This document shows, one piece after another, positions 22,279-63,652 of a stretch of DNA of 64,000 nt. Origin of the DNA: Paraglaciecola sp. T6c (lineage in GTDB: Bacteria; Pseudomonadota; Gammaproteobacteria; Enterobacterales; Alteromonadaceae); assembly GCF_000014225.1 (NCBI RefSeq), contig NC_008228.1:992001-1056000 (forward strand), read 5' to 3'. The notes under the pieces are model-generated. The model had not been told where the DNA came from. It did no database searches and saw nothing but the letters and a program-made list of their open reading frames with translations. Each line of letters begins with the position of its first letter. Within the stretch, counting starts at the first letter, position 1. The position numbers and the translations under genes were made by a program.

Positions 22279-23467
<1,189 letters not shown>

Positions 23468-23549: not shown

Positions 23550-24874
23550 CTGGGGGATCCCCTCATAGAATTGGTCTTCCTTCTTTGTGAACCCAGGTAA
23601 TATATTGGGCGATAGCCCATGTCATTTGGGCTGAGTTCATCCTGTAATCTTTTGCCCTTTTCCTGACTTCTCTGCCTAGCCTAATAATAGATAACACGCG
23701 CCGACGACGGATGGTGTTAGCTTGAAATGCTCTTTCCCAGTTTTGCTTCACGGCGATGATACCGAGTAGCCGTAATAGCCATTCTGCGAGCATCGCTATC
23801 AGCAGTAATATGTCGAATCGTTTGGTACTGCGACTGTTGCTGTGGCGCAGTCCCATGCCGTATTGAGGGCTTTTAATATCGCGGAAGGTTTCTTCTATTT
23901 GCATTCGTCTTGCGTAAAGAGAAACCAGCTGTTTTGAGTTAAGTTTATCGTTCTCGGGAAGGTTAGTGGCGAGTAGCCAAGGCTCTTTGCTACCCGCACG
24001 ATAGCTTTGCTGGGCGGTGTGGTTTCGCCCTGCCTTTGAAGAGCGTTTATCCTTTCGATGTTTGGCCTTTGCTTTGTACAAATGTAGGTGTGCATGAAGC
24101 GGGCTTTTACGCCCTAATTGCCCACACCCAAGGTATTTGGCCCGAGAATTTGCACTGGGATAAAACGACTTATTACTTTGCCATGATGCTTGCCCATCCC
24201 GCTTAAATCCCACATCACCGCGCACTCGGCCTAGCCAGAACCATCCATGCTTTTCGACTTCACGAAACCAAGGGTTACGATAGCCTGCATCGGTCACAAT
24301 CAACGGGCAACAACCCGACGGCAGGATACTCGCCAACTCCCGTAAAAACGGATTATGACTAACAGGTGAATTGTATTCACCGAATGAAAATACGCGCTCA
24401 TAAAGCGTGACAGAGCGTCCTTGAACACTGACCGATGCACGTAAGGTTAAATGCCTGAGCTGCTCACGCACATCAGACCAATCCACAAGGACAACGGGCA
24501 TGGGGTTAGCACCGCAAAGTAGCTTTGCGTGCCAACGATAGATGTCGAGCCGTTCATTATGTAGGTTGTTATTACCAAGCAGCCTGTCGATGCGTTTAAT
24601 GTTGTGTTTCGGGGCCACGGAGCCTGAGATATTGCGTCCTAATTCGGTCAACGACAGTTGCTGACCATCTAGCAAAGATTGGGTGGCAACCATCAAAGAG
24701 GAAAGACGTTTGGCATGTAGATTAGGGCATTGTTTTTTAAGCAAATCGTGTAAGATATGAATATCACGCATGGTGTTGTTATCTAGTTGGTTTTTGGCGA
24801 AATTTATTAGATCAAATGGCGCTATGCGTGTCTATGTTATTGTTTCTGCTCATAATTATGAGGGGATTCGTTAG
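23550..24874 (-). mobile_element. IS10-like (IS4 family) insertion sequence
   Basis: 1325 bp, essentially the length of IS10. The left end starts CTGGGGGATCCCCTCATA; the right end, read inward, starts CTAACGAATCCCCTCATAAT. Both resemble the IS10 end CTGATGAATCCCC. The flanking 9-mers AACGCGGCG and AGTGAGGCG agree at six of nine positions, so a target duplication, if present, has diverged. Removing the element and one 9-mer restores GCGGCGTTAGATAACC, a clean attC right end. Confidence 0.85.
23563..24771 (-). CDS. IS10-like transposase (IS4 family, DDE)
   Basis: 402 residues, matching IS10/Tn10 transposase in length and in many blocks: LTELGRN, KHNIKRIDRLLGN, VLVDWSDVREQ (first catalytic Asp), PLIVTDAGYRNPW (second Asp) and YARRMQIEETFRDIKSPQYGMGLRHS (Y-(2)-R-(3)-E-(6)-K signature with catalytic Glu). 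No frameshift is seen, so the element may be active. Confidence 0.93.
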   Translation of the reverse strand: MRDIHILHDLLKKQCPNLHAKRLSSLMVATQSLLDGQQLSLTELGRNISGSVAPKHNIKRIDRLLGNNNLHNERLDIYRWHAKLLCGANPMPVVLVDWSDVREQLRHLTLRASVSVQGRSVTLYERVFSFGEYNSPVSHNPFLRELASILPSGCCPLIVTDAGYRNPWFREVEKHGWFWLGRVRGDVGFKRDGQASWQSNKSFYPSANSRAKYLGCGQLGRKSPLHAHLHLYKAKAKHRKDKRSSKAGRNHTAQQSYRAGSKEPWLLATNLPENDKLNSKQLVSLYARRMQIEETFRDIKSPQYGMGLRHSNSRSTKRFDILLLIAMLAEWLLRLLGIIAVKQNWERAFQANTIRRRRVLSIIRLGREVRKRAKDYRMNSAQMTWAIAQYITWVHKEGRPIL

Positions 24875-44135: not shown

Positions 44136-44765
44136 ATGAACACATATTCAGCGTGTAAAAAGCTCGTAAAACCAATGTTTTTGGTTGGCGGATTGCTGCT
44201 CAGCAGCGGTGCCTCTGCCGGCCTAATTAATGGGGGCTTTACTGACGGGCTAAACGGCTGGTCAGGAGATGTTAACTATTACAACGTCAATGCCGATGAA
44301 GAAGTGGCAACCTATGACATCAACTTAAACGACTATTCGGATAACTATTTCACTGGCTTAAACAGCGTCACACTCAACACTTCTGCCGATTCAAGCGCAG
44401 AATATTGGGGTATTTATTTGTTTCAAACATTTATGGTTGCTGATAACTCGTCATTTATTTCATTGGCATTTGACTCAATAGCGGACAGCGCTTATGTCAC
44501 TCTTGTTGATGATAATGGCGACCTTCTACATGACTTTATGCTTGACGGTTTAAGTGCCGATATCAGTGCGCTAGCAGGCGCTTCAGTTGCTTTGGAATTT
44601 GGTATTGAAGACTTTAACTACGATTACGATGACTACTTAACCGTGTCCAATATTTCTATTAGCCAACGTGCTAACGCGGTATCTGCACCCAGCACCTTTA
44701 CTCTTTTCCTGCTGGGATTGCTCGCGATCAGGCAAACGTCTGCTTCTCGAAAGCCTGCATTCTAA
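44136..44765 (+). CDS. PEP-CTERM-type exosortase-sorted protein
   Basis: 209 residues. A signal peptide spans about 1-28 (ending ASA). The mature part is Asp/Asn/Tyr-rich and probably beta-sandwich. The C terminus reads SAPSTFTLFLLGLLAIRQTS with a short basic tail, the form of a PEP-CTERM sorting signal: a near-PEP motif (APST), a hydrophobic helix and basic residues. Exosortase would cleave it and attach or release the protein at the surface. It lies 83 bp before the GH82-like gene in the same direction. The DGLNGWSGD opening suggests a carbohydrate-binding-like or extracellular-matrix protein. Function otherwise unknown. Confidence 0.7.
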   Translation: MNTYSACKKLVKPMFLVGGLLLSSGASAGLINGGFTDGLNGWSGDVNYYNVNADEEVATYDINLNDYSDNYFTGLNSVTLNTSADSSAEYWGIYLFQTFMVADNSSFISLAFDSIADSAYVTLVDDNGDLLHDFMLDGLSADISALAGASVALEFGIEDFNYDYDDYLTVSNISISQRANAVSAPSTFTLFLLGLLAIRQTSASRKPAF

Positions 44766-44848: not shown

Positions 44849-47473
44849 ATGTTTGATCCTAATCACAATTGGGTTTCTTTGCGCGCGCTAAAAGGTGCCC
44901 AGTGGGCAGTGACACGCTTAATTTTCATCACCTTAGTTTGTCAGTTATCTTTCAATGGTTATGCACAAGAAGAAGGCGAGTGGGTGACGGTGGAGTCAGC
45001 CAGCGTTGAACAAAGTGAGCGCTACACCAAACGCCGTGTGGGCTATTACACTTACAATAATATTGTCATTTCAGATGCCACAGCACTTTCTGACAAATTG
45101 CGCATAGTGGTGACCGATAGCAGCCACGCGGTACTCGACGCGGATGGTATTAACGATGATGGACTCCCTTACTTTGATATTGTGTCACTGGATGAACAGA
45201 CGCAAATTTACTTCGGGATAAAGCGAGGAGAGCTTAATTACAACGCGGTGGTTCAAGAGTTCGCATCGGCCGATAGCCCAGAGGAAAATTTATTATCAGT
45301 CGCCAATATGGCGCCAAGCGCCCACTGGGATAACGCAGCGCTGGCTAACGTTGTACAAGGTGACAACCATGAGGAAGCTGTGGCGACCCTTGAAGGTGCA
45401 GCTAATAGTAACGTGTACATCATCTTTGATATCGAACAAAGCAATAATTTAGTCTTTAACTTTAGCCAAGACGATACAGAACAAAATCGTGTTACAAGCT
45501 GGGAAGCAGCCCATAAAACAGACAGTGGTTGGGTTGTGCTGAAAAGCTGGGGCGATGCTAACGTAGGTCTAAATACCTTTACCGCCAACCCTAATGTGTC
45601 AGCCAATAAGATTCGCTTTAGATTTAGAGGCCCAGATGGAGCGAATTTAGGCATTAACCAACTTTCGCTGATAAGCAAAAAAGATGACTCGGCACCTATA
45701 TCCGACCCAGGTGGCGAGTCGATTCTTGATACAGACTTAAGCGGTTATACCGGCTATACGGACGAAAACGGCGTTACTACGGTGAATGTCGGCTTTTTCG
45801 AGAATAAGGTTTTTGACGACGCGCCTACTGAATTGTTCGCTGAAGCCGTGTTTGCTGACACGGTAAATGATACTGCGCGATTAAAAACGGCGCTCAATCA
45901 AGCAAAAAGAGAAACCGGTGGCGGTGTCGTTATACTTCGCGCAAATGCGAATGGCCAAAATCGTTTTAGTTTATCTCATATTGCGGTGCCGTCTAATGTA
46001 CGTATCGAAGTGGAGCCTAGCCTTGTACTTGAAATGCGCGGCATAAAGGAAGACCTTTACCCCACAAGCAAAAATGATCACAAAAATAAGAATAAACCCA
46101 ATCGTCAGTTTTTGTTCTCGTTCGGCCGGAGTAACGGCCCAGGCAATTTATTAGCCGAGCGGGTCGAAAATGTAGAAGTTCGCTCGACTATACCTGGTCA
46201 GAAGTTCACCATAGATGCCACCACCAACATGCCGCATAACTATGGTTACATGAACGGTGGTAATGGTAATGGCGTGGTAAACCTAACCCGCGCCATCCCT
46301 GTTGGTTTGTTTTACGTGAAGAACTTCGCGATTTCAGATATCAATATTGAAGATAATCACACGGAATCGGTTGCTGTGCAGATGTTCGCTGACGCTGATT
46401 ACAAGGACGGTGCATTTGCTTATCGCTTTGGCCCTACACCGCTATTTTTGGAAGAGCGCTATGTAAAAAATCCGGCAGGAAGCCCGAATCTCAATAAGCC
46501 GATGAACCCCGTAAATATCCCGTTAGCCACCAACGATAATGGCGACTTCATTGATGAGACTGGTGATGTTGTGCCTGATATGTTTGCCATTCAACGTAAC
46601 CCCACTTACGGTCGCACACCAGTTAAAGGGTCAATCAAAAATATTAAGGCAAGCCATGCCCATACTGGTTACGGCGTAGTGCAAGTATATGGCGGAGATT
46701 GGATAGAAATCGATAACATTGAAGCCTTCAACGGTATCGGCGTTCGCTTAGAAGCGGGTAATGGTACAGACAACGATAACTTCAATCGTTCGGGGCCTTA
46801 CTTTTCGTCTATGAACAAAATCAATATCACTAATGTGAAGGTCACCAATGGTTTCACTGGTGTGTGGTTAAAACCCCATTCAAAAATCATGAAAGACATC
46901 AGTGTAGAAAATATCGAAGCGATAGACAGCGGTACGGCCTTATTAGTCGGTAAAGGGTCGTTCAATTGTAAAACCCGTTGTCGCGACCTAACCCGAGGTC
47001 GTATTAATAATTTAGTGATTAAAGGGGATATCACCCTAAGACAAACCGTATTTGATGCCCCTGTTGCAGAGGTGGGCAATAACATTACGTACTTGATAAC
47101 CGATGCCAACAGACGTTATTTAGCTAACCTCAACGATAAAAACATCGATCAACTGACCCGAAATGATTTACAGCAGAAGAAGATCATCGGCCAGCAAACA
47201 CCTGAGCAGTTAGCCGCATTGACCCCAGAAAGCTTTGATAATCCGTCAGGTACGCGTTGGTATAAAATATTTCCAACGGCACCTGTTCTCGCCTTATCCA
47301 TGTTATCTGCAACAGAAGTAGGCAATGAATCCGCTAAATTTGGCTTCTACCCTGTGGATTTCTCTAAAGCGAATATCGTTTCTGATGGTTTACCTGAAGA
47401 TACCTTGATTTTGTATCGCGGTGATATGCGTAACCCCAACGGCAGTACTGCTACAGATTTCATCAATAAGTAA
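44849..47473 (+). CDS. Large modular GH82-like iota-carrageenase
   Basis: 874 residues from the ATG at 44849 (GGAG ribosome site). A signal peptide (about 1-40) is followed by two beta-sandwich-like modules (about 45-160 and 160-290), a linker and a right-handed beta-helix (about 310-740). I align the helix by memory with the Alteromonas fortis iota-carrageenase: GYGVVQVYGGD, GIGVRLEAGN and VWLKPHSK correspond to the segments bearing catalytic Gln222, Glu245 and His281. Here these are Gln612, Glu635 and His677, with the Gln-Glu spacing of 23 identical. The position of Asp247 is Gly637, which is unusual. GH82 enzymes cut iota-carrageenan endo-wise with inversion. Activity or specificity may therefore differ; a GH28-like polysaccharidase is a less likely alternative. 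Confidence 0.7.
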   Translation: MFDPNHNWVSLRALKGAQWAVTRLIFITLVCQLSFNGYAQEEGEWVTVESASVEQSERYTKRRVGYYTYNNIVISDATALSDKLRIVVTDSSHAVLDADGINDDGLPYFDIVSLDEQTQIYFGIKRGELNYNAVVQEFASADSPEENLLSVANMAPSAHWDNAALANVVQGDNHEEAVATLEGAANSNVYIIFDIEQSNNLVFNFSQDDTEQNRVTSWEAAHKTDSGWVVLKSWGDANVGLNTFTANPNVSANKIRFRFRGPDGANLGINQLSLISKKDDSAPISDPGGESILDTDLSGYTGYTDENGVTTVNVGFFENKVFDDAPTELFAEAVFADTVNDTARLKTALNQAKRETGGGVVILRANANGQNRFSLSHIAVPSNVRIEVEPSLVLEMRGIKEDLYPTSKNDHKNKNKPNRQFLFSFGRSNGPGNLLAERVENVEVRSTIPGQKFTIDATTNMPHNYGYMNGGNGNGVVNLTRAIPVGLFYVKNFAISDINIEDNHTESVAVQMFADADYKDGAFAYRFGPTPLFLEERYVKNPAGSPNLNKPMNPVNIPLATNDNGDFIDETGDVVPDMFAIQRNPTYGRTPVKGSIKNIKASHAHTGYGVVQVYGGDWIEIDNIEAFNGIGVRLEAGNGTDNDNFNRSGPYFSSMNKINITNVKVTNGFTGVWLKPHSKIMKDISVENIEAIDSGTALLVGKGSFNCKTRCRDLTRGRINNLVIKGDITLRQTVFDAPVAEVGNNITYLITDANRRYLANLNDKNIDQLTRNDLQQKKIIGQQTPEQLAALTPESFDNPSGTRWYKIFPTAPVLALSMLSATEVGNESAKFGFYPVDFSKANIVSDGLPEDTLILYRGDMRNPNGSTATDFINK

Positions 47474-47674: not shown

Positions 47675-48676
47675 ATGATCAAGCAAGTTTATGTCATTAG
47701 GGCGCTCGCTTTCAGCGCTTTTTTTGCGCTTCATTCTCAGGCGAGTACTAAAATGCTTTTGCCATTGTCCGACCCAGATAATAAGGGGAATTGGTCATTA
47801 AATACCGCTGTGAGTGACGAGTTCGATAACAGCACACTCGATGAAGACCGCTGGTTTATTGTCGGTAAGTTTAAAGACGGTAAGCCGCAATATATTCACC
47901 CTGACAAACCCGATAAATGGGTATGGAAGGGCAGGGCACCGTCGCAATTTTCCGGGCGAAATCATCGCTTGGAAGACGGAAAGCTAATGCTAGAAGCCCG
48001 CTGGGAGCCAGATTTCCCCTTTTCCGATGAAATCAGAAAGCCGGTGTTTGGTGAGCCGATGAAACATGAAAATATTACCGTTCCTTGCCTAATCAACCGC
48101 CGTTCATTTACGTACGGCTACATTGAAATCAAAAGTAAATCTGCTGATGCTGAAGTGACTAGCGCTTTTTGGTCAATGGGACCTAAGTTGGAATTTGATT
48201 TTTTTGAGTCTTTTGGTGACAGCCGAGAAGATCCCAAAAAAGACCACCTGGACAGTGAATTATGGTGGTCTATCCGAGATTGGGAAAAGCCCGTTGGAGG
48301 TAAGCCGAGTTACACCGAACACAAAGATCTTGGCTTTAGAATGGCCGATGACTTTCATGTATACGGCGTAGAATGGAATGAAAATGGGGTTAAGTACTAT
48401 GTCGACGGCGAGTTGCTGTCAACGGTCAGTGCAGAGCAGGTCACCGCGTGGGCTAAGAAGAACCGCGAAGGACTCCCCGAAGACTACAATGGCTACGTGG
48501 CGACAAAGCCGATAAACCTCTGGCTAGACATGGAAACCTTCCCGTGGCACGGCTACCCCAACAGTAAAGAGGATTTGGAAAAGAATAGCCCTGAGCATTT
48601 GAAAAATGATGGCGTCGTGGACTTCGAGGTGGAATACATCCGCGTGTGGCAAAAGCCAGAACAACTTGGGCAGTAG
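47675..48676 (+). CDS. Secreted GH16 galactanase (carrageenase/agarase-like)
   Basis: 333 residues with a signal peptide (about 1-23). A single GH16 domain has the catalytic strand LEFDFFESF (Glu173, Asp175, Glu178; ExDxxE). The sequence differs from the GH16 protein at 2210: it has a longer loop around HPDKPDKWVWKG and many charged surface residues. In this locus (GH82-like upstream, sulfatase directly downstream) a kappa-, beta-carrageenan or furcellaran-cleaving specificity is plausible. Agarase or porphyranase remain alternatives. AGAAGG ribosome site. Confidence 0.83.
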   Translation: MIKQVYVIRALAFSAFFALHSQASTKMLLPLSDPDNKGNWSLNTAVSDEFDNSTLDEDRWFIVGKFKDGKPQYIHPDKPDKWVWKGRAPSQFSGRNHRLEDGKLMLEARWEPDFPFSDEIRKPVFGEPMKHENITVPCLINRRSFTYGYIEIKSKSADAEVTSAFWSMGPKLEFDFFESFGDSREDPKKDHLDSELWWSIRDWEKPVGGKPSYTEHKDLGFRMADDFHVYGVEWNENGVKYYVDGELLSTVSAEQVTAWAKKNREGLPEDYNGYVATKPINLWLDMETFPWHGYPNSKEDLEKNSPEHLKNDGVVDFEVEYIRVWQKPEQLGQ

Positions 48677-48698: not shown

Positions 48699-50231
48699 AT
48701 GCTTATAACATTCGAACGTCGCCATCTTCAGCGTTTAAGTTATCTATTATTCATAACGTTGATTGTCTGTGAAAGTGTGCTGAATTCCTGCGCTGCACAA
48801 GTTGTAACAAAGCCTAACGTACTGCTGATTCTAGTGGATGACTTAGGCTACTCAGATATAAAAGCGTACAACGAAAATAGTTTTTACGACACGCCCAACA
48901 TCGATAAGCTTGCTAGTCAGAGTGTTATGTTCACCAACGGATATGCGGCTAACCCTGTGTGTAGCCCCTCAAGATTCGCGCTGCTGACAGGCAAACACCC
49001 AACCCGAGGCAAAGCGACTGATTGGTTTCCAGCTAATGATAAACCCGCACGGGCAGGGCGCTTTCTTCCCGCTGAGTTTAATGACGCTTTACCATTGTCT
49101 GAAATCACCTTGGCTGAGGCGTTCAAACAAAATGGTTACAACACTGCTTTCTTAGGTAAGTGGCATTTAGGGAAAACCGAAGATCTGTGGCCTGAGAACC
49201 AAGGCTTTGATGTCAATATTGCAGGTACTAAAAATGGTCACCCTGCAGCTGGGTACTTTTCACCCTATAAAAATGCACGATTAACGGATGGTCCCAAAGG
49301 CGAGTATTTGACACAGCGCTTAACCAATGAAGCTATATCCTTGGTGGATAAATACAGCAAACAAACCGTTCCGTTTTTTATGATGCTGTCTTTTTATACG
49401 GTACATACGCCTTTAGCTGCGCCGAACAAAGACGTACAAGAGTATCAAGCAAAAATACGCCAATACGCCCATAACGACGAGTTTCAAAGGGAAGAGCAGG
49501 TTTGGCCGACTGCGGAGAAACGGGAGGTGAGGGTGAAGCAAAATCACCCCACGTATGCTGCTATGGTCAAACAAATGGATACCCAAGTAGGCAGACTATT
49601 AGCCAAATTAAAGCAAGCGGGTATGGAAGAAAGCACGCTTGTTGTGTTTACCTCGGACAATGGCGGGCTATCAAGTGCCGAAGGCTCACCGACTTCAAAT
49701 TTGCCTTTGCGTGGCGGCAAAGGTTGGTTATACGAAGGGGGAATTAGAGTGCCGTTATTGGTTAAATTACCCCAGAAGAAACACAAGCACCTACAGATCA
49801 ATGAGCCCGTGACCTCTACTGATTTGTATCCCACCTTACTCAGTGCTGGGCACCTCGATTTGCTGCCTCAGCAACACTTGGATGGAGTAGATTTAAATCA
49901 GTACTTTTCGCCCGGCGCAAAGCGCGACGCGCTAATGCGAAGGCCTTTGTATTTTCACTACCCTCATTACTCGAATCAGGGGGGATTCCCTGGCGCAGCA
50001 ATCCGTCAGGGTAACTGGAAGTTAATTGAGCGCTTCGAAGACGGTAAGGTGCATTTGTATAACCTTGCCAATGACATAGGCGAACAAATAGACCTAGCAA
50101 ACCAAGCGCCCGAACGAGTCGCTTCGTTGCGCAAAAAACTGCATGAGTGGTATCAACAAACTAGTGCGCGCTTCTTAAAAGCGAAGGGTAACAAAACGCC
50201 TTGGCAACCAGATTTTAAGGCTGAGTTATAA
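48699..50231 (+). CDS. Exported S1-family sulfatase (carbohydrate type)
   Basis: 510 residues. The N terminus is a hydrophobic signal (about 12-34) with Cys31 in NSC and no perfect lipobox. Metal ligands are VDDLG (Asp47, Asp48). Signature CSPSR at 88-92 with Cys88 as the formylglycine precursor, followed by GKHPTRGKATDW and LGKWHLGK. The C terminus has the normal YFHYPHYSNQGG and LYNLANDIGEQIDL blocks. Formylglycine maturation would need FGE or anSME, not in the window. It starts 22 bp after the GH16 gene, so the two probably form an operon: the hydrolase exposes ends and the sulfatase removes ester sulfate from galactose or anhydrogalactose. Confidence 0.87.
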   Translation: MLITFERRHLQRLSYLLFITLIVCESVLNSCAAQVVTKPNVLLILVDDLGYSDIKAYNENSFYDTPNIDKLASQSVMFTNGYAANPVCSPSRFALLTGKHPTRGKATDWFPANDKPARAGRFLPAEFNDALPLSEITLAEAFKQNGYNTAFLGKWHLGKTEDLWPENQGFDVNIAGTKNGHPAAGYFSPYKNARLTDGPKGEYLTQRLTNEAISLVDKYSKQTVPFFMMLSFYTVHTPLAAPNKDVQEYQAKIRQYAHNDEFQREEQVWPTAEKREVRVKQNHPTYAAMVKQMDTQVGRLLAKLKQAGMEESTLVVFTSDNGGLSSAEGSPTSNLPLRGGKGWLYEGGIRVPLLVKLPQKKHKHLQINEPVTSTDLYPTLLSAGHLDLLPQQHLDGVDLNQYFSPGAKRDALMRRPLYFHYPHYSNQGGFPGAAIRQGNWKLIERFEDGKVHLYNLANDIGEQIDLANQAPERVASLRKKLHEWYQQTSARFLKAKGNKTPWQPDFKAEL

Positions 50232-50574
50232 CGTTAATACTGCTTTTCATGACACTGTTGCTAGCAATAATTAAAACGGTAGCGTTCGCATAGGGAAAAG
50301 TTAGTGACTTATCAGTGAATATCACAGCAAGCACAATTCAGATGTTAAGACCTTATCTGAAAAGACTCACACCTTGAAGGCGTGAAGCGTTAACACTTCA
50401 GCCGGCCATGCATTGTGAATTCCGACTAGTACAGAGTACATATCGGAGCGCAGATTTTCAGATAATCGAGAAATATCCACCACCTCTCTATTATAAAGAC
50501 ACCCAAGTTAAAATTAGTTATTTTCATTCCTAAACTAAGCTTGATAGGTGTTCTATTTGATCAAGTTGTTGGTT
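50232..50574. other. Gene-free stretch
   Basis: About 340 bp after the sulfatase. It contains CACACCTTGAAGGCGTGAAG-like short hairpin material near 50369-50390 but no gene that I can support. Confidence 0.35.
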
Positions 50575-51162
50575 ATGCCTCAGTCGCGAAAAAGCCAAAT
50601 CAGTTTAATCGATACACCTATTTTATTCACAACATCCATGTCGTTCACTTCTTCGAAGCCAGCTAAAGCTGTTCAAATTTTATTCCCGATAAATTTGTCA
50701 TTGTATTTCCCGCTGTGTACGGCATACGTTGACCTAAATCCTATACGCGCAAAAATGGCAGAAAAACCCGAAACGGCAAGTCACACCAGTATTAAAAAGC
50801 GGATCGACGCGGCTAAAAATCAACAGTCGCAGCCTAGCGCCTTGATGCCCTTTGTGGGCTGCTATCGTAAAGAAATGCCCAAAGGTCTCACGTATTTACT
50901 CAATGATTATTACGAGCTTATAGATACCACAAGCCGCTGCATTCGTGATGATAAGACAGGTTATATGGATAATAAGCAAAGTCTTATTTTAGAAAGACTC
51001 GGGTTAGGCACGGCGCAGTGGCTAACCCTATCCACTGAGTTCGAAAAGCATTTTTGCTACGCCGCAGGTGCGGAGCAAATGATGAGCATGTTCAAGCGTC
51101 ATACCCACCATCAGAGACTGCGAGGGATGGGTAAAGCCAAAGAGTTGTTAAAACAAGCATAA
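50575..51162 (+). pseudogene. REP-associated/Y1-type transposase, internally deleted
   Basis: From the ATG at about 50575 the frame begins MPQSRKSQISLIDTP, the usual opening of Alteromonadales Y1-type transposases. It then jumps through unfamiliar sequence to CTAYVDLNPIRAKMA, which normally lies about 180 residues in. The tail (TASHTSIKKRID, YYELIDTTSRCIRDDK, FKRHTHHQRLRGMGKAKELL) is intact. The stretch carrying the HUH histidines and catalytic tyrosine is missing, so the protein cannot be active. The ORF remains open to 51162. Confidence 0.75.
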
Positions 51163-52831: not shown

Positions 52832-55258
52832 TTATTGAGGGGAGACTTTTAGCAGCAATACGCCTTCTGACTCAAGTTCGAAATGGCTATTTATTGGATT
52901 GCTGGTCATCATGTTGGTGAGGATCGCAGGCTTTCCATTTGCCAGTGATAATTCAAGCTTGGCGACATTACGCCCAACATTCAGAATATTCACTAGGTAG
53001 CTACCGTCAGGCTGTTTGATTGTGCGCCATGTGGTCGTTTTGAACGGCTCGCCGTTATCTTCTTTTAGCAAAATATCAGGCATGCTGTCGGCAATTTCTG
53101 CTAGAGCCACTTGCTTGATTTTTGCAATATCAGCTTCTGCCTCAAGTGCGATTAGTTTCCCTTTACTTGCTTTCAGTGACTGTTTGCGGATTTGGCCGTA
53201 TTCGTTAAATTGCAAGCTTTTAGTATCGAGAATGACGGTACCGCCTTGCTCTAAATAAGACTGTAATGCAGCAAATTCAGCGTCACTCACATTTGGGTTG
53301 TTGTAAACAATGACCGTATCCCAAGCGCTATTGTCTTGTTTTTCAATAATATTTTTGGTGACAAAGCCCAACGGTAAGCCTTCAAAAAACAGCTCTTCAT
53401 AGAGCTTGTACCCTTTGGTCATGTAGTCATCAGTGTTGATGGCTGTAGTTTCAGAGTAAAACAAACGTAGCGGACGAGGTTGTTCCCGCAGTTCGATGAT
53501 CTCTTCTGAAAAACTATTCAAGTCAAACATCACCTGAGTCACTTCATTGGTGACTTGAGGTTGCATGTTGTTAGACCCAGCATAGGCACCAGCCAAACCT
53601 GGATCGAAAAAGTCTAACTCGCCTTCTAATCTGTCCTCAGGGGAGCCGTCGGGATCCCGCGCCCAAAACCAACCGGTGTTGGCATCCATTCCTAGTAATG
53701 TGGCCAACCAATAGACACTGCGAACATAGCTTGGGCGAGTGTCTAAATCGCGCCATTGGCCTGACGATAAGAAATGTGATTCTGAGTTAACATTAATTTT
53801 ATTTGGTGCCACTGACTCCATAAAGTCGTGGAACATGGCAACGTATCCCCAGTAATAAGCGTACTTTTCCATCCATTTTGAGGATTTACCTGGCCTAATA
53901 TTCTTGCTGCCAAATGATTTAGCATCATGGCCTACCATGGTGGTTAATTCCGCTAATGCTTCGGTATCTATGCCACCTGAGCGAACATTATCCATAAACA
54001 TACGCGGCATTATTTTAATATGCGTGTCGGCATCTGGATTAACTGAATGTAACTGATTTTGCATAAATGCAAACCAGTTAGTACTTCTATCCATGTTGTA
54101 ACGTGACCAGTCAAACCAAATTGGCTGGCCTTGCAAAGCAGGATCTATCGGTATGTCGATAGTCACATCATCGAAACTCGCAAAGTCGGCTCGCCAATTG
54201 GCATTAAGCTGAGCTAAGTCGCCTTCGTACTTATCGTTTAGCCAAGTGCGGAAATTGTTGAGTGTGTAGGAGGAAATTGAAGTCATCTCGTCGAAGCGAG
54301 CGGTCCAAAAGTCTTTTTCTGCAAACCAATGAGGTTCATTAGCCAGCACAAAGCCCAGCTCTGTTACTTTTTTGCCTTTTGTTAGCTCACCTGTTCTACG
54401 GATGATTTTACCCCACAAATCACGTGCTAAAGGGTTGTCTATGTCGAATCCGGTAAAGAGTGAACGACCCTTACGTACTTCAGGTTCTTGCTTTTCAACC
54501 CACTCTGGGATCCCCATGATCCAGTAATATAGGAAGCCAATATTCGTATCAGGAATATCGGTGAGTTCCTTCATCAGTTCTTCGTCAAAGGTCCCGTCTT
54601 CCTTCAATAAAAAGGAGTTAATGGCGCGGTCATGATCTACTGGATAGAGGTTTTCACCACCGTGGTATAGTGCACCTAAATGGTCGTTATACACGTCGGT
54701 ATTGGTCAGTGGTTGGCCAACCGATTTAGAAAAGTAATCGTAAGGGAAGATAGGTTTCCCATTACTCACAAACATATTGTCGCCAGCTTTGGTACCCTGC
54801 CAATCAACCTTGTTTACTGGTCGGCGTTTTATGTCACCGCGTAGTACTTGTGCGAGCACCGTTATGCCTTTATCTAAAATTTCGTTTACTTTTTGGCGTT
54901 CGAAGTCAGGTAAAGAAGCTGCTAATTCAACTTTATCGGCAGCGTAATAACGTTCGTACCCAAAAGCGGCTTCAATTGCTTTAGGGTTCGCTTCATCCCA
55001 ATTCGCGAATTTGATAAACTGCTCAGAAAACCACACTAGCGTTTCTTCTCGGGTAACGTCTATTTTCTTGCTTCGTGCTTCGTCCATCATACCTTTGAGC
55101 TTGTCCAATTTTGCTTTAGCTTGTTGCTCAAGTGGGCTGACAGATTCAACTTTTTCGGTCGCTATTTCCAATACCTGTTTAGGTTCGGTTGATTGGCTGC
55201 AACCTAAACTAAGTATGAGTGCTGAAGCAATACTTGCCCCTAAAAGATGATGTTTCAT
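52832..55258 (-). CDS. Lipoprotein GH42/GH167-like beta-galactosidase
   Basis: 808 residues with a lipobox LSLGC (Cys20), then a helical linker (about 40-145). A TIM-barrel catalytic domain follows with acid/base Glu308 in LANEPHWF (clan-A NEP motif) and nucleophile candidate Glu493 in NVNSESHF. After about residue 600 a glutamine-amidotransferase-like trimerisation domain (VIVYNNPNVSDAEFAALQSY), here identified by its TVIVYNNP strand, and a C-terminal beta domain complete the GH42 plan. In marine carrageenan loci, GH42-like or GH167 enzymes remove (neo)carrabiose or galactose from chain ends. The family plan is clear; the exact family and substrate are inferred. Expected at the outer-membrane inner face. 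Confidence 0.78.
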   Translation of the reverse strand: MKHHLLGASIASALILSLGCSQSTEPKQVLEIATEKVESVSPLEQQAKAKLDKLKGMMDEARSKKIDVTREETLVWFSEQFIKFANWDEANPKAIEAAFGYERYYAADKVELAASLPDFERQKVNEILDKGITVLAQVLRGDIKRRPVNKVDWQGTKAGDNMFVSNGKPIFPYDYFSKSVGQPLTNTDVYNDHLGALYHGGENLYPVDHDRAINSFLLKEDGTFDEELMKELTDIPDTNIGFLYYWIMGIPEWVEKQEPEVRKGRSLFTGFDIDNPLARDLWGKIIRRTGELTKGKKVTELGFVLANEPHWFAEKDFWTARFDEMTSISSYTLNNFRTWLNDKYEGDLAQLNANWRADFASFDDVTIDIPIDPALQGQPIWFDWSRYNMDRSTNWFAFMQNQLHSVNPDADTHIKIMPRMFMDNVRSGGIDTEALAELTTMVGHDAKSFGSKNIRPGKSSKWMEKYAYYWGYVAMFHDFMESVAPNKINVNSESHFLSSGQWRDLDTRPSYVRSVYWLATLLGMDANTGWFWARDPDGSPEDRLEGELDFFDPGLAGAYAGSNNMQPQVTNEVTQVMFDLNSFSEEIIELREQPRPLRLFYSETTAINTDDYMTKGYKLYEELFFEGLPLGFVTKNIIEKQDNSAWDTVIVYNNPNVSDAEFAALQSYLEQGGTVILDTKSLQFNEYGQIRKQSLKASKGKLIALEAEADIAKIKQVALAEIADSMPDILLKEDNGEPFKTTTWRTIKQPDGSYLVNILNVGRNVAKLELSLANGKPAILTNMMTSNPINSHFELESEGVLLLKVSPQ

Positions 55259-55357: not shown

Positions 55358-57106
55358 TTATTGCACTGGCATGACTGCGTATTCGTCAAGTAGGATTTTC
55401 TCGCCTTCTGGTAGGCCATACACTTCCCAAAATTGGAATACATCGGTGGAGACATTCCACTGGGGTGGCACGGACCATTCTCTATCGCCAGTTGCTTCAT
55501 TGATAAACTCGACCAATTGCCATTCGGTGGTTTTCTGCAGTGTCGCGGACAAAATACCGGCTGTAGGTCTTCTAAAATCAAAGCCCGGGCCACTTGGGCC
55601 GCCGTCATATGTCCACGCTAACAGGACATGTTTAAGGGTGATGTCTTGTGTTGGTAGCTCCGGTAGTTTTACCCAGACTGAATATTTGTAGGTCTGGCCG
55701 ATAGAGCTTCCGCCTAAGCCATAGGTTGCACTGTGCCAATTCCGTTGTTTGTTGAACACTTGCTGGAGGACTTTTGTTGCCTCATCGGCGCCAGCAGTAA
55801 TTTCCAAGGCTTTGCCCGAAAGACTGACGTCAGAAGCAGCAACAGTGCCGCCTTTCCAAGGAGCGCCTGCACCGTCGAGATTAAAGTCAGTGTTGAATCC
55901 AGCAGGGTGAGCTGATACGCCGGTTTCGCACATCAGGTTTCTGACCACAGTCGCGGTAATATCTTGACTCATCACATCGGCAAAAGCGGTTGCTCCGGTA
56001 TCGCCAGACGCTAAAGAAACGGATGCATCAAACGTAAAGCCAACGGTTGAGGCGTCACCCACTGAGTACATGCCAACACCACTTTCGCCATAGTTAACAG
56101 ATGTAGCAGGGAAGTCTACGTCGTTGCTTGAGGTCCACGCGTAGGCATAATCACCGCTTAAGGTGTCTCCAAACGCTGGGGTAGGGGTAACGTTAAATCC
56201 TGCGGTTACGCAGGCGGGTACCTCTTTCGTTTCACTTGGCAGCCCATTGCTGTCCATGTCTCTGTTGGAAATTGCTAAGGTGAATTCAGAAAAGACTTCT
56301 AGGTCTACTGTAATTGACTTATCAGGCGCACTGACGCTGGTCACTGTTACCGTGGTTTGCCCAGCCTCAATGGTAGTGATATTGCCGTTGTCATCTATGC
56401 TCGCGATGGACGGGTCGGCTATCGAATAAGTTAGGCCCTGATCGCATGCTTTTTCAGGAAGCACAGTGGCAAAAAGAGTGGCTTCTTGGCCCATCAATAC
56501 GCGAATTGGCTCAGCCGTCACACTTTCAACAGCGTCGAACACTGCATTCATGGTCAATATTAAAGTGCGTCTGGGCAATACTTCCCCGGGGGCTAAATCA
56601 AAGCCGTTATCCACTGCAAAATCGATTGTATAAGTCACTTGGGGCGGGGTATCTAAGAAGCCGTCAGGTGTTGGATTGTCATCCTCATCCCGCGGGCCTC
56701 CAATGATATCAGTGGTGTCACAGGTGCTGAGACGGTCAGCAAATTTGTCAGTATCAATGATGAGCTTGCCGTCTTGTTCAGAAAAAGGTGACACGGTCTG
56801 ATTGGCTAAACCATTACCTCTTATTTGTGGCGTGACAAAGTTTTGATCAACGGTGAAGTTAAAGTCTGAAACATTGATATTGCCGGCCAGTGGTTTGCCA
56901 TCAGCCATGGCCCCAGCCAGTAAATCAACTTCTTGGGTACCGGTTTCTTCTTCAAAAGACGCGTTAAGCGTCGCCGTATCAAAGGTCACAATCTCAGACG
57001 CTGAAAAATCAGGGTCGTACCCTTCGTCAGTACCGCCGCCACAGCCGGCTAAAAGCGTGGCAAGCACGGCTGCTGTTACTTTGTTTACTAGTAAGTGTTT
57101 TTTCAT
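55358..57106 (-). CDS. Ig-like (BIG2) lipoprotein paired with TonB receptor
   Basis: 582 residues from the ATG at 57106, which has a GGAGAAG ribosome site; a longer in-frame start at 57169 would bury the signal. Lipobox LLAGC near residue 21 with a glycine-rich tail. The middle holds a bacterial Ig-like group 2 domain (SIADPSIASIDDNGNITTI then AGQTTVTVTS). The C-terminal 170 residues form a beta-sandwich resembling a carbohydrate-binding module (YKYSVWVKLPEL, WQLVEFINEAT). It lies 107 bp downstream of the large TonB receptor on the same strand, so it probably is its surface glycan-binding partner, analogous in role (not in sequence) to SusD/SusE. Confidence 0.75.
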   Translation of the reverse strand: MKKHLLVNKVTAAVLATLLAGCGGGTDEGYDPDFSASEIVTFDTATLNASFEEETGTQEVDLLAGAMADGKPLAGNINVSDFNFTVDQNFVTPQIRGNGLANQTVSPFSEQDGKLIIDTDKFADRLSTCDTTDIIGGPRDEDDNPTPDGFLDTPPQVTYTIDFAVDNGFDLAPGEVLPRRTLILTMNAVFDAVESVTAEPIRVLMGQEATLFATVLPEKACDQGLTYSIADPSIASIDDNGNITTIEAGQTTVTVTSVSAPDKSITVDLEVFSEFTLAISNRDMDSNGLPSETKEVPACVTAGFNVTPTPAFGDTLSGDYAYAWTSSNDVDFPATSVNYGESGVGMYSVGDASTVGFTFDASVSLASGDTGATAFADVMSQDITATVVRNLMCETGVSAHPAGFNTDFNLDGAGAPWKGGTVAASDVSLSGKALEITAGADEATKVLQQVFNKQRNWHSATYGLGGSSIGQTYKYSVWVKLPELPTQDITLKHVLLAWTYDGGPSGPGFDFRRPTAGILSATLQKTTEWQLVEFINEATGDREWSVPPQWNVSTDVFQFWEVYGLPEGEKILLDEYAVMPVQ

Positions 57107-57212
57107 CTTACTTCTCCAAAATCCTGTTATGTAGGTCGAGCACGTGATGTGAGCGAAGTATGCAAGCACAACGGGCTCAACCTGTTCTTAAAGTGTTATT
57201 GAATAAGGCGTA

Positions 57213-60200
57213 TCAGAAAGTGCCGCGTAAACCGATACGGAATTGACGCCCAGTTTTGAATAGAGCAACGGTTCTGTTTGTCGTTATGCCGCTGTCATCA
57301 AAAACATTGCCTTCGTCCAACACCACTTCTTGAGAATTCAAATTGGTCGCATCAACCGTACCTGAGGAGGTGTAAAAATTACGCATGGTTTCGTCGGTCA
57401 AGTTCAACGCATTGAAGGTCACAGTAAAATTTTTGTTGATGGCGTAGCTGCCGCTGAAATCAAGACGAGAGCTCGCTTCTTGCCATATTGCCCCGCCATT
57501 GTTCCTTGAAACCGCTTGCACATCGGTATAGCGATTGGCCAAGCGCAGTTGGATGCCGTCCTTTTCCCAGTAAATGGTCATGTTGGCAGAATGTTTCGGC
57601 GTAAACGGCTGTGGTAGTGGGCGCAAGAAACGACCTGTTGAGCCAATTTCTTGTGCTTCTGATTCTGAGTCTTGGTAGGTGTAATTAACGCTTATCCCGA
57701 GAGCAGATAATACCCCTGGTAACATGGTGTAGTTTTGAGTGTAACCTAACTCAATGCCTTTAATCGTGGCGCCGTCACCATTAGTTACAGTGGCAACATT
57801 GACCACATCGCACTCAATCGTCCACTTATCGAAAAAGCCAGCGGCGTAGCGCAATGGATGACAATTATCTTCGTCACCAGGGGTGCGATTGGGATCAAAA
57901 TCGAGTAGTAGGTCAGCACTTTCTAAATCTATCTGATCGCGTACATCTTTATAATGGAACGGCGTGATAATGGTTTCTTCAAAATCTTGCATATCTTTGT
58001 AAAACAGTGCCGCGGATAACAAGCCTGATTCATTGAAATACCACTCGTAAGAGAAGTCGAGGTTAGTCGAGGTTAGGTTTTTCAACTGGGTATTGCCTGC
58101 GCGTCCGTTACCGGTTCCGAATTGTTGCTCGCGAATACTGTTACCCGGATTTAACGAATCGAAGCTCGGGCGAGTCATGGTTTTTGTTGCTGCAAAACGT
58201 AATATTGTCTCTTCGTTCAACGCATAGTTAAGGGACAAGCTAGGCAGCCAAGCCTCGTTAGTACCTGAGTCCGACACCGGTGCTTCCCGTTGTTGCACTT
58301 CTTGCCCAGTGCCATTAGGCCCAGTAAAGGCGGTGCTTCTGTCTAGGAATGGCCAAATCAAACCGTTTGAATTAAATCTTGCCCATTCAGATGCGCTAGT
58401 GGGAACAAGGTTGCCGTTTTGGTCGTAAATTTGTGCTGGCAGTTCATTACTGGTAACGATATTTCCTGAACCATCTACGAATAGTATACGGTTAACATCC
58501 GGGCCAACTTGGCCATCTGCGCCAGGGATAAGGAACTGCCCTGTGGCTGTATCGTAAGGAATGGTGGCTTGGTTATTAAAGTTGTAGCCATGTGTCACTG
58601 CAAACGCCCAACAGTTTCTCAACTGGTCGTCATTCTCTGGTGTAAAACGTGTATCGTTGTTGCTGATGACGGCTTCAGGACAAGCGGGATTACTCATATT
58701 AGCCAGCCCGCGCGTAACGATTAGATCGTATGGGTCCAGCATTTGCGGGGCGCGAATATAATTGATACTACCAAGACCTGACGCGTCCGATTCGTCACGA
58801 ACGTAGCGCACGCCAATATTACCTGTAAGCTTACCATCGAAAAACTCGAAGTTAGTTTTAACGTAGGCTGCCATCGTTTCGGTTGCAATTTCTCGGCTAC
58901 CGGCACGTGAACGGTTAACCCCAAGTTCACCAGCATTTTTACCGCCGACAAGTTCTAAGGCTTTTTCTGCATCCAACAATGGCCATCCACCAAATAACGC
59001 GTTGCTGCGATTCGCCTGCAAGTCTTCGCCAAAGTTATCATAAGGGAATGCTTCGCCACTGATGATGTCGGCAACACGAATGGTCGCCAGGCCTCTGACT
59101 TCAAATGGTGCGGATGGGTCATCAACATCGATGAGATCTTCGCCATTGGTGATACGGGTGTTCTCAATATTCACATCCCGTGAGCGGTCAGCCCATTTGG
59201 CACCAAATTCAACGGATCTCACATGTTCGTAATCCAGCACCCAATCAAAGTTTAAGAATACGGACTTGTTGGTGTCAGTCAGCTTGTTTTTACGAAATAA
59301 CAACTGACCTAAATGATTGTGTTCTAAATCGAAAGGGTTAAAGCGACTAGTTACCGACGTCACAGAGCCGTCGAAGGCATCAAATTGCGCCAGTGTTGAT
59401 CCACTAAAATAATCACAGTCTGCTGTCGAGCCCGTTGAGCAGTCGTAACCTACAAGCTCAAGTATGTCGTCCGGCTGGGCTTCTACGGCATTTCTTCCGG
59501 CGGTTCCCCATTGAGCTGTTCCGATTGAAAGGAATCTATTTTCTTCATCATCATCAGGCGTTTCATCAACGGTCTGAGAATATCCGGCCACTATGTTCAT
59601 AGTGAGGTTATCCGTAAGATGACGAGTGAAATCCAATGTGCTGACCTTTGTTTCGATTTCACGCAGACCTGTTGTGCGGTTTGTGGTACCGCCAATCGAG
59701 CGACTCGTTGAACGTTCTAGGGTATTGGTGCGAAGATCAACCACATTGAGTGCGGTATTATCATCATCTGGGTGGATCAACACTAACGGAGAAATATTCA
59801 TATTTACGCTATGGTTATCTTGCAGAATATCTTGTTTGGTGTATGTCACATCCCATTGAATATCTGTTTTTTCGTCAGGGCGGTACTGCACCCCCGTTGA
59901 CAGTGAAAAACGTTCTCGCTTATCCGTATTAAGACCAAAATTGACTGAGTCTCTTGCCAATACGAAAAGGTCGCCTTCAACCAGCTGTTGCGTTGTTGGG
60001 TCATAATCAACCAAGCTCTCAATAGGGTTGACTAACGCTTGTCCGCTATCATCTCGTAATACGTTTCCTTGATCGTCGCGTTGATAACCCAATACGCGAA
60101 TAGGCTGACCTGTAGCTAAATCGGTTGCGGTACGCCCACCGTCATTTAAGTCATTTATTGGAATTGCACCAGTTTCAAAGTCCGTTGAAATTCTGTCCTG

Positions 60201-60923
60201 CCGCGTGTTTTGAACGTCTCTGGAGGCAGTAATGATAAATCCCAATTTTTCATCGAAGTACTTGTCAGCGAAGCTACCGTTAATTCTGAAATCGTTGTCG
60301 TCAGCGAACTCGTTATAACGCCCTTCAATGGTGAATGAACGTCTGGGCTTTTTCAGGTTTAATGGTCTGACGGTTCGAAGTACGATGTTTGCACCAAGGG
60401 AGCCCTCATCTTGATCGGCGGCCGCAGTTTTTACCACGTCAATTGAGGACAAAATATCTGATGAGAAAGAACTTAAATCAACACTGTTGTTATTGGTTGC
60501 ATTGTTGTTGGAACCGTCATTGCTAATGCCGCCAGTTAACGCCACACCGTTGATAGAAATCTGGTTTAGTGATGGGCCAGCACCGCGTACTGAAATACGT
60601 GTTCCTTCGCCAGCCTCTTCTTGTACTGTGACACCAGTCACGCGGGATAACGCGTCCGCAATGTTTTGGTCGGTAGATTTACCCACATCTTCTGCGTGAA
60701 TTGAGTCACTGACAGTGTCAGAGAATCGCTTAGCATTCATTGATTTCATCAAACTGCTACGAAAACCCGTCACATCAATGACTTCTATATCTTCTTCTGA
60801 AGCGAGTTTTGACTGGACAGGCTCTGCTGGTGGTTGCTCGGACTCTTGAGCGACAGTATGTGTGCTCAGAAAAGTTGTCATAACCGCCAGTGATAAAGCG
60901 TTTAATCTAAAATGTGTTCTCAT
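57213..60923 (-). CDS. Large TonB-dependent receptor (saccharide type)
   Basis: 1236 residues, larger than siderophore receptors and of the length typical for oligosaccharide TonB receptors in Alteromonadales and Caulobacter. A signal peptide (about 1-25) and a TonB-box-like EVIDVTGFR are followed by a plug with SIHAEDVGKSTDQNIADALS and VQEEAGEGTRISVRGAGPSL. The barrel ends FRIGLRGTF. It likely imports sulfated galactan oligosaccharides across the outer membrane. The dyad at 61187-61205 lies 264 bp upstream, suggesting substrate-dependent control, and the Ig-like lipoprotein gene follows in the same transcript. Confidence 0.9.
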   Translation of the reverse strand: MRTHFRLNALSLAVMTTFLSTHTVAQESEQPPAEPVQSKLASEEDIEVIDVTGFRSSLMKSMNAKRFSDTVSDSIHAEDVGKSTDQNIADALSRVTGVTVQEEAGEGTRISVRGAGPSLNQISINGVALTGGISNDGSNNNATNNNSVDLSSFSSDILSSIDVVKTAAADQDEGSLGANIVLRTVRPLNLKKPRRSFTIEGRYNEFADDNDFRINGSFADKYFDEKLGFIITASRDVQNTRQDRISTDFETGAIPINDLNDGGRTATDLATGQPIRVLGYQRDDQGNVLRDDSGQALVNPIESLVDYDPTTQQLVEGDLFVLARDSVNFGLNTDKRERFSLSTGVQYRPDEKTDIQWDVTYTKQDILQDNHSVNMNISPLVLIHPDDDNTALNVVDLRTNTLERSTSRSIGGTTNRTTGLREIETKVSTLDFTRHLTDNLTMNIVAGYSQTVDETPDDDEENRFLSIGTAQWGTAGRNAVEAQPDDILELVGYDCSTGSTADCDYFSGSTLAQFDAFDGSVTSVTSRFNPFDLEHNHLGQLLFRKNKLTDTNKSVFLNFDWVLDYEHVRSVEFGAKWADRSRDVNIENTRITNGEDLIDVDDPSAPFEVRGLATIRVADIISGEAFPYDNFGEDLQANRSNALFGGWPLLDAEKALELVGGKNAGELGVNRSRAGSREIATETMAAYVKTNFEFFDGKLTGNIGVRYVRDESDASGLGSINYIRAPQMLDPYDLIVTRGLANMSNPACPEAVISNNDTRFTPENDDQLRNCWAFAVTHGYNFNNQATIPYDTATGQFLIPGADGQVGPDVNRILFVDGSGNIVTSNELPAQIYDQNGNLVPTSASEWARFNSNGLIWPFLDRSTAFTGPNGTGQEVQQREAPVSDSGTNEAWLPSLSLNYALNEETILRFAATKTMTRPSFDSLNPGNSIREQQFGTGNGRAGNTQLKNLTSTNLDFSYEWYFNESGLLSAALFYKDMQDFEETIITPFHYKDVRDQIDLESADLLLDFDPNRTPGDEDNCHPLRYAAGFFDKWTIECDVVNVATVTNGDGATIKGIELGYTQNYTMLPGVLSALGISVNYTYQDSESEAQEIGSTGRFLRPLPQPFTPKHSANMTIYWEKDGIQLRLANRYTDVQAVSRNNGGAIWQEASSRLDFSGSYAINKNFTVTFNALNLTDETMRNFYTSSGTVDATNLNSQEVVLDEGNVFDDSGITTNRTVALFKTGRQFRIGLRGTF

Positions 60924-62098: not shown

Positions 62099-63652
62099 AT
62101 GAAGTTAACGTTTTTTATCGCGGGCATGGCAACTGCCTTGCTTTGTCACAGTAGCTTAGCTGCCAATGAACCAGAGCAAGAAACTGTGCAAACCAAACAA
62201 CCAAACGTATTGGTTCTTATGTTTGACGACATGCGTTTTGATACATTCTCGTATCGTGGCGGTCCAGTTCCTACCCCTAACATTGATGCCCTAGCCAACG
62301 ACGGCACCCGCTTTGATAATGCCATGACAACCACTGGCTTGTGTTCACCTTCACGTGCTGCGTTGTTTACAGGGCGTTGGGGACATAAAACCGGCCTAGA
62401 TGATAACGTAGGTTTGTACCATTCTCATGTGGATGAACTAAGTGAAGAAGAAGGAGGCGTGATACGCCGTGCTGCAGACACCGGATACCACGTAGGATAT
62501 GTGGGCAAGTGGCACCTTGGCCCCCAAGGCCCAGCGCTACGAGGTGCTGATTTTATGTGGGGCAAAGAACATTCTCAGGCCCGTCATTCTCGCCCCTACG
62601 TGCCTTATGAAAAACAAGCCAAAATGGCGCAATACAATCGCGGCGAGCGGGACGAAAATGGCGAGAAGCACGAATATTACCAAACCTTGCCTGGTACATA
62701 CGAAACAAGCCATACCGCTGAAAACGTGGATATGGGGCAAAAAATGCTACGTGAAGCGGCCAAAATGGATGAACCATTCTTTGGCGTCATCAGCTTCGAA
62801 CAGCCGCATCCTCCTTATCGAGTACCAGAGCCATACGCCAGTATGTTCGATCCGAAAACAGTTAAATTACCCGCTAATCACGCTGTGAAACGTCAGTTTA
62901 AGCCGATGGCTCAAGATGAAGATTGGTGGCCTTGGCATGATGTGGGCCATATGACGGATATGGATTGGCGCAAGTCACGCACCTTTTATTACGGTGCCAT
63001 TGCCATGATCGACCATGCGGTTGGGGATATCATCAAAACGGCCAAAGACGTGGGCATGTACGATGACTTAACGATTATCGTGCTAGGCGATCAGGGAAGC
63101 ATGTTGGGAGAGCATAATCTGTACGATAAAGGCCCTTATGCTTACGACGAATTGATGCGCATGCCTTTAATCATTCGCGCGCCAAATGTAGAGCCTAGAA
63201 TTGTTAACAAGCAAGTTTCAATGCTCGACATTGCGCCGACAATTAGCGAAATGATGTCACTGGAGCCTGACGGAGACGTGGACGGCAGAAGTTTAGTGAA
63301 TTTGATGGAGCAAGGCGACATTGCTGATAAAGGCAGAGTCGATCAAGCGTTATATGCTTATGAATGGTACAACGGCGGCTGGTTCGGCATTCGCGCTTTG
63401 CGTACCCCAGAGATGAAATTCGTTTGGAACCCAGGTGATAACCGTGACGAATTGTACGATCTGAAAAATGATCCCATCGAAGTCAACAACCTCATCAAAG
63501 ACAAAAAATACACTAAGCAGCTACGCCATATGGTGCAACTGATGGAAGACGAGCTCGTGCGTATCAAAGACCCATCAATAGAAAAGTTCCGCTATCAAGT
63601 CGCGGGCTATCGAAGCAAAGAGGGCACTAGCCAAGCCTATAACGTTGACTAA
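62099..63652 (+). CDS. Exported S1-family sulfatase (choline/carbohydrate sulfatase-like)
   Basis: 517 residues with a signal peptide (about 1-21, ending LAA). Metal ligands are MFDDMRFD (Asp43, Asp44); signature CSPSR at 82-86 with Cys82 as formylglycine precursor. YVGKWHLGPQGP and an acidic VLGDQGSMLGEHN metal segment follow. The C-terminal subdomain is normal. It differs from the 48.7-kb sulfatase, so it probably attacks another sulfate position. It is under the control of the operator-bearing region upstream and is followed by another sulfatase gene 75 bp later. Confidence 0.87.
   Translation: MKLTFFIAGMATALLCHSSLAANEPEQETVQTKQPNVLVLMFDDMRFDTFSYRGGPVPTPNIDALANDGTRFDNAMTTTGLCSPSRAALFTGRWGHKTGLDDNVGLYHSHVDELSEEEGGVIRRAADTGYHVGYVGKWHLGPQGPALRGADFMWGKEHSQARHSRPYVPYEKQAKMAQYNRGERDENGEKHEYYQTLPGTYETSHTAENVDMGQKMLREAAKMDEPFFGVISFEQPHPPYRVPEPYASMFDPKTVKLPANHAVKRQFKPMAQDEDWWPWHDVGHMTDMDWRKSRTFYYGAIAMIDHAVGDIIKTAKDVGMYDDLTIIVLGDQGSMLGEHNLYDKGPYAYDELMRMPLIIRAPNVEPRIVNKQVSMLDIAPTISEMMSLEPDGDVDGRSLVNLMEQGDIADKGRVDQALYAYEWYNGGWFGIRALRTPEMKFVWNPGDNRDELYDLKNDPIEVNNLIKDKKYTKQLRHMVQLMEDELVRIKDPSIEKFRYQVAGYRSKEGTSQAYNVD

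Follow-up and report, generated by a model that had tools for sequence, protein, structure and literature searches.

A GH82-type protein of Paraglaciecola sp. T6c, probably an iota-carrageenase, and the possible displacement of the second carboxylate in its sub-type

Described iota-carrageenases and the Paraglaciecola protein

In CgiA of Alteromonas fortis, an iota-carrageenase of family GH82, Glu245 and Asp247 have the acid/base roles (residues are numbered as PDB chain position plus 27). The present work concerns a relative of this enzyme in Paraglaciecola sp. T6c, encoded in a stretch of 64,000 nucleotides of contig NC_008228.1 (the window). Our analysis indicates that the protein is most probably a secreted, endo-acting iota-carrageenase, that it belongs to a sub-type of GH82, here named G-type, in which most alignments place a Gly at the Asp247 column (domains with Asp there are named D-type), and that its gene lies in what looks like a carrageenan-use cluster.

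Several relatives have been described. Ce391 of Colwellia echini cleaves iota-carrageenan, and not kappa- or lambda-carrageenan, furcellaran or agar, with neo-iota-carrabiose and -carratetraose as reported products (PMC6952198). CgiA of Microbulbifer thermotolerans JAMB-A94 is a protein of 569 amino acids (aa) in which, by a review's account, Glu351 is catalytic "rather than an Asp"; the title of Hatada's 2011 paper speaks of an "unusual catalytic mechanism", and going by that title and the review, the anomaly discussed here seems to have been in print since then. PMC9788395, where this enzyme has the accession BAJ40863.1, sets it beside enzymes of P. atlantica and Paenibacillus in which domain A is missing, and uses the term "Clade C". 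In Pseudoalteromonas carrageenovora, the product of PCAR9_p0028 is called an iota-carrageenase, at 95% to that of strain An33.

The family assignment of the window protein is supported by a phmmer search of the PDB, where the A. fortis chains were the sole significant matches (1h80, E 4.3e-9; 3lmw, E 5.7e-9) and the third row was a designed protein with an E of 0.39. The similarity, which extends to 70% identity with the Ce391 match and 45% with the match of Microbulbifer CgiA, exceeds chance. No Pfam or NCBIfam family recognised the protein in family library scans, and in Pfam even the A. fortis-like relative at locus L014 had no family above the cut-off. An origin in another beta-helix family was considered and rejected, as GH28, PL6 and the epimerases score lower in the fold comparison; the better match that the earlier note on this DNA had named as grounds for abandoning GH82 was thus not found.

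The open reading frame runs from an ATG at 44849 to a stop ending at 47473 and encodes 874 aa, with the listed frame starting upstream at TTG 44828. The layout is as follows.

44849..47473, + strand: GH82-type iota-carrageenase, predicted secreted multi-domain protein (reading frame, PDB phmmer, fold, active relatives)
44849..44974, + strand: N-terminal targeting region, aa about 1-42, helix 5-34 (structure model; signal peptide judged by eye)
44975..45268, + strand: module 1, a beta module, aa about 43-140 (structure model; common to large proteins of the same bacterial family)
45272..45691, + strand: module 2, aa about 142-281 (structure model)
45764..47470, + strand: catalytic right-handed parallel beta-helix, aa about 306-874 (PDB phmmer, model, fold comparison)

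The two extra N-terminal modules, which the earlier note had thought unusual for GH82, are present in the model, but module 1 is no peculiarity of this kind of GH82. It also stands ahead of a D-type GH82 domain and of other large proteins, and within the same bacterial family it is met again, at the N-terminal end or close to it, in larger proteins (frames of 1,058-2,541 aa). The fold match list is filled by module 2, a candidate galactose-binding-like jelly roll of the CBM32 / F5-8 type C kind, which, going by its fold, probably helps to hold the substrate.

The active site as a sub-type of GH82

The residues on which the comparison turns were placed by alignment.

46682..46684, + strand: Gln612, equivalent to A. 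fortis Gln222
46751..46753, + strand: Glu635, equivalent to A. fortis Glu245 and to Glu351 in the match of Microbulbifer CgiA; probable catalytic carboxylate
46757..46759, + strand: Gly637, at the Asp247 column in most alignments
46775..46777, + strand: Asp643, Asp in 29/29 G-type rows; candidate for the displaced Asp247, or base
46877..46879, + strand: His677, equivalent to A. fortis His281
46391..46393, + strand: Asp515, Asp in 29/29 G-type rows, with every one of the 16 D-type rows gapped at this column; rival candidate base

All four MAFFT modes, over 47 rows, put Gln612, Glu635, Gly637 and His677 on the Gln222, Glu245, Asp247 and His281 columns, so that the earlier note's description of the active site is right as the majority alignment. 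The window row has Leu at the Arg303 column and Asn at the Glu310 column, and in an alignment of nine sequences it has a gap where L014 carries an insertion that we take to be domain A. The D-type combination of Asp247 with Arg303 and Glu310, and domain A, is thus not seen in the protein.

The relatives were collected from overlapping samples that lean to the Alteromonadales: matches were found in 10/394 genomes of the order (some to the N-terminal module only), 21/395 of the family, 3/7, 1/24 and 2/96 of smaller families, and 3/48 of the genus of Microbulbifer elongatus, to which L022 belongs. A genome-contig scan gave 12 loci, and each of two plasmid searches gave 3 records. In a class-level sample of 369 genomes the only match was the window's own; the phage records gave none, and of 18 stretches in viral contigs that matched a pattern, 0 were confirmed. 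The 78 matching frames yielded 51 domains, or 52 rows with 1h80, and 46 were kept for the tree after omission of two fragments with Asp at 247 (L028, L042) and four rows with no alignable active site (L051, L052, L053, L060). Near-copies are counted in these totals (L032 does not differ from L044 in the columns used for the tree, and the branch between L047 and 1h80 has zero length).

Asp stands at the 247 column in 16 of the 46 domains, in 14 cases together with Arg303 and Glu310; the other two have Asp at 310. Gly is found there in 30/46, and the full pattern of the window protein (Glu, Gly two later, a loop Asp, Asn three later) in 28/46, the window included. The typical order, in most rows of each, is E-T-D-N-L-x-M-K for the D-type and E-x-G-...-D-x-[LF]-N for the G-type, in which the loop Asp lies 8 residues after the Glu in 26/28 rows (9 in L026, 6 in L049). 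None of the 28 has Arg303 or a Glu at the 310 column, where two have Asp and one a gap. When the motif columns were removed, the 28 rows still formed one side of a branch of the tree, with support of 100/98. The G-type was defined from these active-site features and the tree, with L010 and L059 excluded by choice, and the window protein shows all of its features: R-x-E-[APS]-G, Asp 6-9 after the Glu, Asn three after that Asp, Asp515, and no Glu at 310. Judged by these alignments, the altered active site is a sub-type and not a loss in one protein.

With the Microbulbifer protein L077 added as a further G-type row, three changes special to the G-type are each fixed in 29/29: Arg589, Arg803 and, two residues beyond the catalytic His, Lys679. 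They would fit a re-built sulfate-binding site. Two departures from the usual patterns were also seen. The relative at L050 1156-2829 (- strand) has Trp at the His281 column, the sole case in 46 rows, and those at L010 1231-2523 (- strand) and L059 1453-3018 (+ strand) have Gly at the 247 column with no loop Asp, a third active-site type.

Where the second carboxylate may be

The statement that Asp has become Gly is ambiguous, as it holds or fails with the placing of a six-residue gap. In profile-profile alignments by hhalign of 14 D-type against 28 G-type rows (the D-type profile omitted L050 and L027), three of five settings put Asp247 on Gly637, with the gap after it, as the earlier note had it; the other two, in which the gap penalty was lowered in one case and raised in the other, set the gap between Glu635 and Asp643 and bring Asp247 onto Asp643. 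The nine-sequence MAFFT alignment likewise puts Asp247 of L014 on the Asp643 column. If the gap lies between Glu635 and Asp643, then Asp643 corresponds by descent to Asp247 and the insertion has shifted it by six residues. This we judge the likeliest course, followed by a role for Asp515 and then by no second carboxylate at all, though we hold it tentatively, at slightly under an even chance. Glu635 is probably the essential acid, and the second carboxylate would still be present in a displaced position. Two observations tell against such a displacement: it is the minority alignment, since all four MAFFT modes over the 47 rows and hhalign at its default mact put Asp247 on Gly637, and AlphaFold is unsure of the loop, with a pLDDT (its per-residue confidence score) of 52 for model block 351-360.

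The next candidate is Asp515, on the beta-helix coil before Gln612, which could be the replacement base while Gly637 and the loop Asp643 are structural or sulfate-binding. It is Asp in 29/29 G-type rows at a column that is a gap in 16/16 D-type rows, and in the model (as residue 226) it lies three residues past the end of the strand 221-223. Its conservation could, however, reflect the binding of calcium, or the fixing in place of a long insertion that comes after it in the sub-clade of the window protein, and we consider this role possible, on the doubtful side. Somewhat less likely still is a mechanism with a single carboxylate, in which no carboxylate other than Glu635 is needed and water is activated otherwise, for example by the Gln612/His677 site. 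The Gln, Glu and His do occur together in 28/28 G-type and 15/16 D-type rows (the exception having Trp for His), but two sub-type-specific Asp residues are invariant, which asks for a reason. The comparison thus narrows the second carboxylate of the G-type to two invariant aspartates, Asp643 and Asp515. In the open-access passages drawn on (from PMC6952198, PMC9788395, PMC3669377, PMC4919138, PMC5698469, PMC6923384, PMC5943477, PMC10958521, PMC12549532, PMC6262041, PMC11285056 and PMC13168452, with subscription papers outside the scope), we found no statement on the equivalents of either residue.

Substrate, gene neighbourhood and comparison with known systems

The activity of the window protein is best approached through its relatives. 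C. echini A3 has two tandem GH82 copies, and its loci L019 and L079 read GH16, unknown, GH16, sulfatase, sulfatase, GH42-like, GH82, GH82. The GH82 copy adjoining the GH42-like gene is taken as Ce391 because this order fits the numbering Ce385 to Ce392 of PMC6952198; it is 70% identical to the window protein over 725 aa, and the gene matched to Ce392 is 79% identical. At L077, in a genome from the same genus as M. elongatus, a relative of 569 aa has its catalytic Glu exactly at 351. The G-type therefore appears, from these matches, to contain two published active iota-carrageenases, Ce391 and Microbulbifer CgiA. From these relatives the activity and substrate of the window enzyme are inferred; it would probably cut the beta-1,4 bonds of iota-carrageenan to give neo-iota-carrabiose, possibly also neo-iota-carratetraose, for uptake and desulfation by the products of neighbouring genes.

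A few points call for caution here. Ce391 was matched by gene order and CgiA by length and residue number, not by accession; one of two Paenibacillus enzymes, counted among Clade C, was without activity in its host in spite of reportedly conserved catalytic residues (PMC9788395), so that conservation of the active site alone is no proof of activity; and validation of Ph1659, a GH82 of P. hydrolytica, did not succeed.

The neighbouring genes are listed below.

44136..44765, + strand: small exported protein with a PEP-CTERM-like tail (by eye), directly upstream of the GH82 gene and conserved there in relatives
47675..48676, + strand: GH16 enzyme, 69% identity over 309 aa with the match of Ce387, a C. 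echini furcellaranase
48699..50231, + strand: sulfatase
52832..55258, - strand: GH42/GH160-like enzyme, 80% identity with the match of C. echini Ce390
55358..57169, - strand: exported Ig-like protein (Big_2), 46% to the gene adjoining the GH82 of P. carrageenovora
57213..60923, - strand: TonB-dependent receptor, 63% to its counterpart in the same gene group of P. carrageenovora
62099..63652, + strand: sulfatase, 65% identity with the match of C. echini Ce389

By its gene content this neighbourhood looks like a carrageenan-use cluster. In PMC6952198, Ce390 is a neocarratetraose-monosulfate hydrolase and Ce389 is proposed as an iota 2-sulfate sulfatase. Relatives of the small PEP-CTERM-like protein precede a G-type GH82 gene in L017, L018, L020, L036 and L037, and a D-type one in L023. 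Two transposase-like genes (by eye; 22279-23235 and 23563-24771 of the window, - strand) lie between oxygenase-type genes and the cluster, and at 50548-51162 a frame that shares 43% identity over 145 aa with a gene close to the cluster of C. echini (L079 16-987) looks, by eye, like a mobile-element remnant.

The earlier note had proposed a new subfamily, with either another sulfated galactan as substrate or a shifted acid. A sub-type of 28/46 domains has indeed emerged, with a displaced Asp as the favoured account, while the proposed change of substrate has fared poorly. The alternatives would be alpha-, beta- or kappa-carrageenan, furcellaran or a hybrid: identity to two D-type rows of C. echini A3 is only 27% and 24%, the cluster also holds the relative of a furcellaranase, and alpha-carrageenan is not named among the substrates tested with Ce391 in the sections of PMC6952198 covered. 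With the gene matched to Ce391 so similar and Ce391 cleaving iota-carrageenan but none of the four other galactans named above, and since two G-type members appear to be published active iota-carrageenases, a different substrate is improbable. An inactive homologue that only binds carrageenan, as the absence of Asp247 and Glu310 by majority alignment and the Paenibacillus case might suggest, is more improbable still, given that Gly217, Tyr218, Gln222, Arg243, Glu245 and His281 are all kept in the window row and that sequences matched to active relatives share the same absences.

The window protein is then an ordinary member of its sub-type, a marine bacterium's iota-carrageenase, and the remaining interest is mechanistic. 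We give even weight to and against the view that GH82 holds two active-site designs for one reaction: Glu245/Asp247/Glu310 on the one hand and, on the other, a G-type in which the second carboxylate has moved (to Asp643 on the inserted loop or Asp515 on the neighbouring coil), Arg303 and Glu310 are lost, and Lys679, Arg589 and Arg803 are fixed. If true, this would be a migration of the catalytic base within one family with the substrate unchanged. There is a practical side as well, as annotation by the catalytic Asp of A. fortis would wrongly discard 28 of the 46 GH82 domains compared, in a sample weighted to Alteromonadales.

Among the known systems, A. fortis CgiA (1h80, 1ktw, 3lmw) shares about 21% identity with the window protein in the structural alignment; that enzyme differs in having Asp247 two after Glu245, plus Arg303 and Glu310. 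The P. carrageenovora gene at L032, taken to be PCAR9_p0028 since a GH16 gene follows it, encodes a protein of 26% identity, with a G-type active site and with receptor, Ig-like and GH16 neighbours related to those of the window. A G-type active site is likewise found in the match of Microbulbifer CgiA, its Glu351 corresponding to Glu635; its alignment spans residues 316-865 of the window protein only, leaving the N-terminal modules without a counterpart. The C. echini A3 genes matched to Ce391 and Ce392 share the pattern of Gly637, Asp643 and Asp515 and have related neighbouring enzymes, and they differ from the window protein at the N-terminus, where the former lacks module 1 and the latter (L019 7104-9749) has a long repeat linker of the Asn-Thr-Asp-Gly type in its place.
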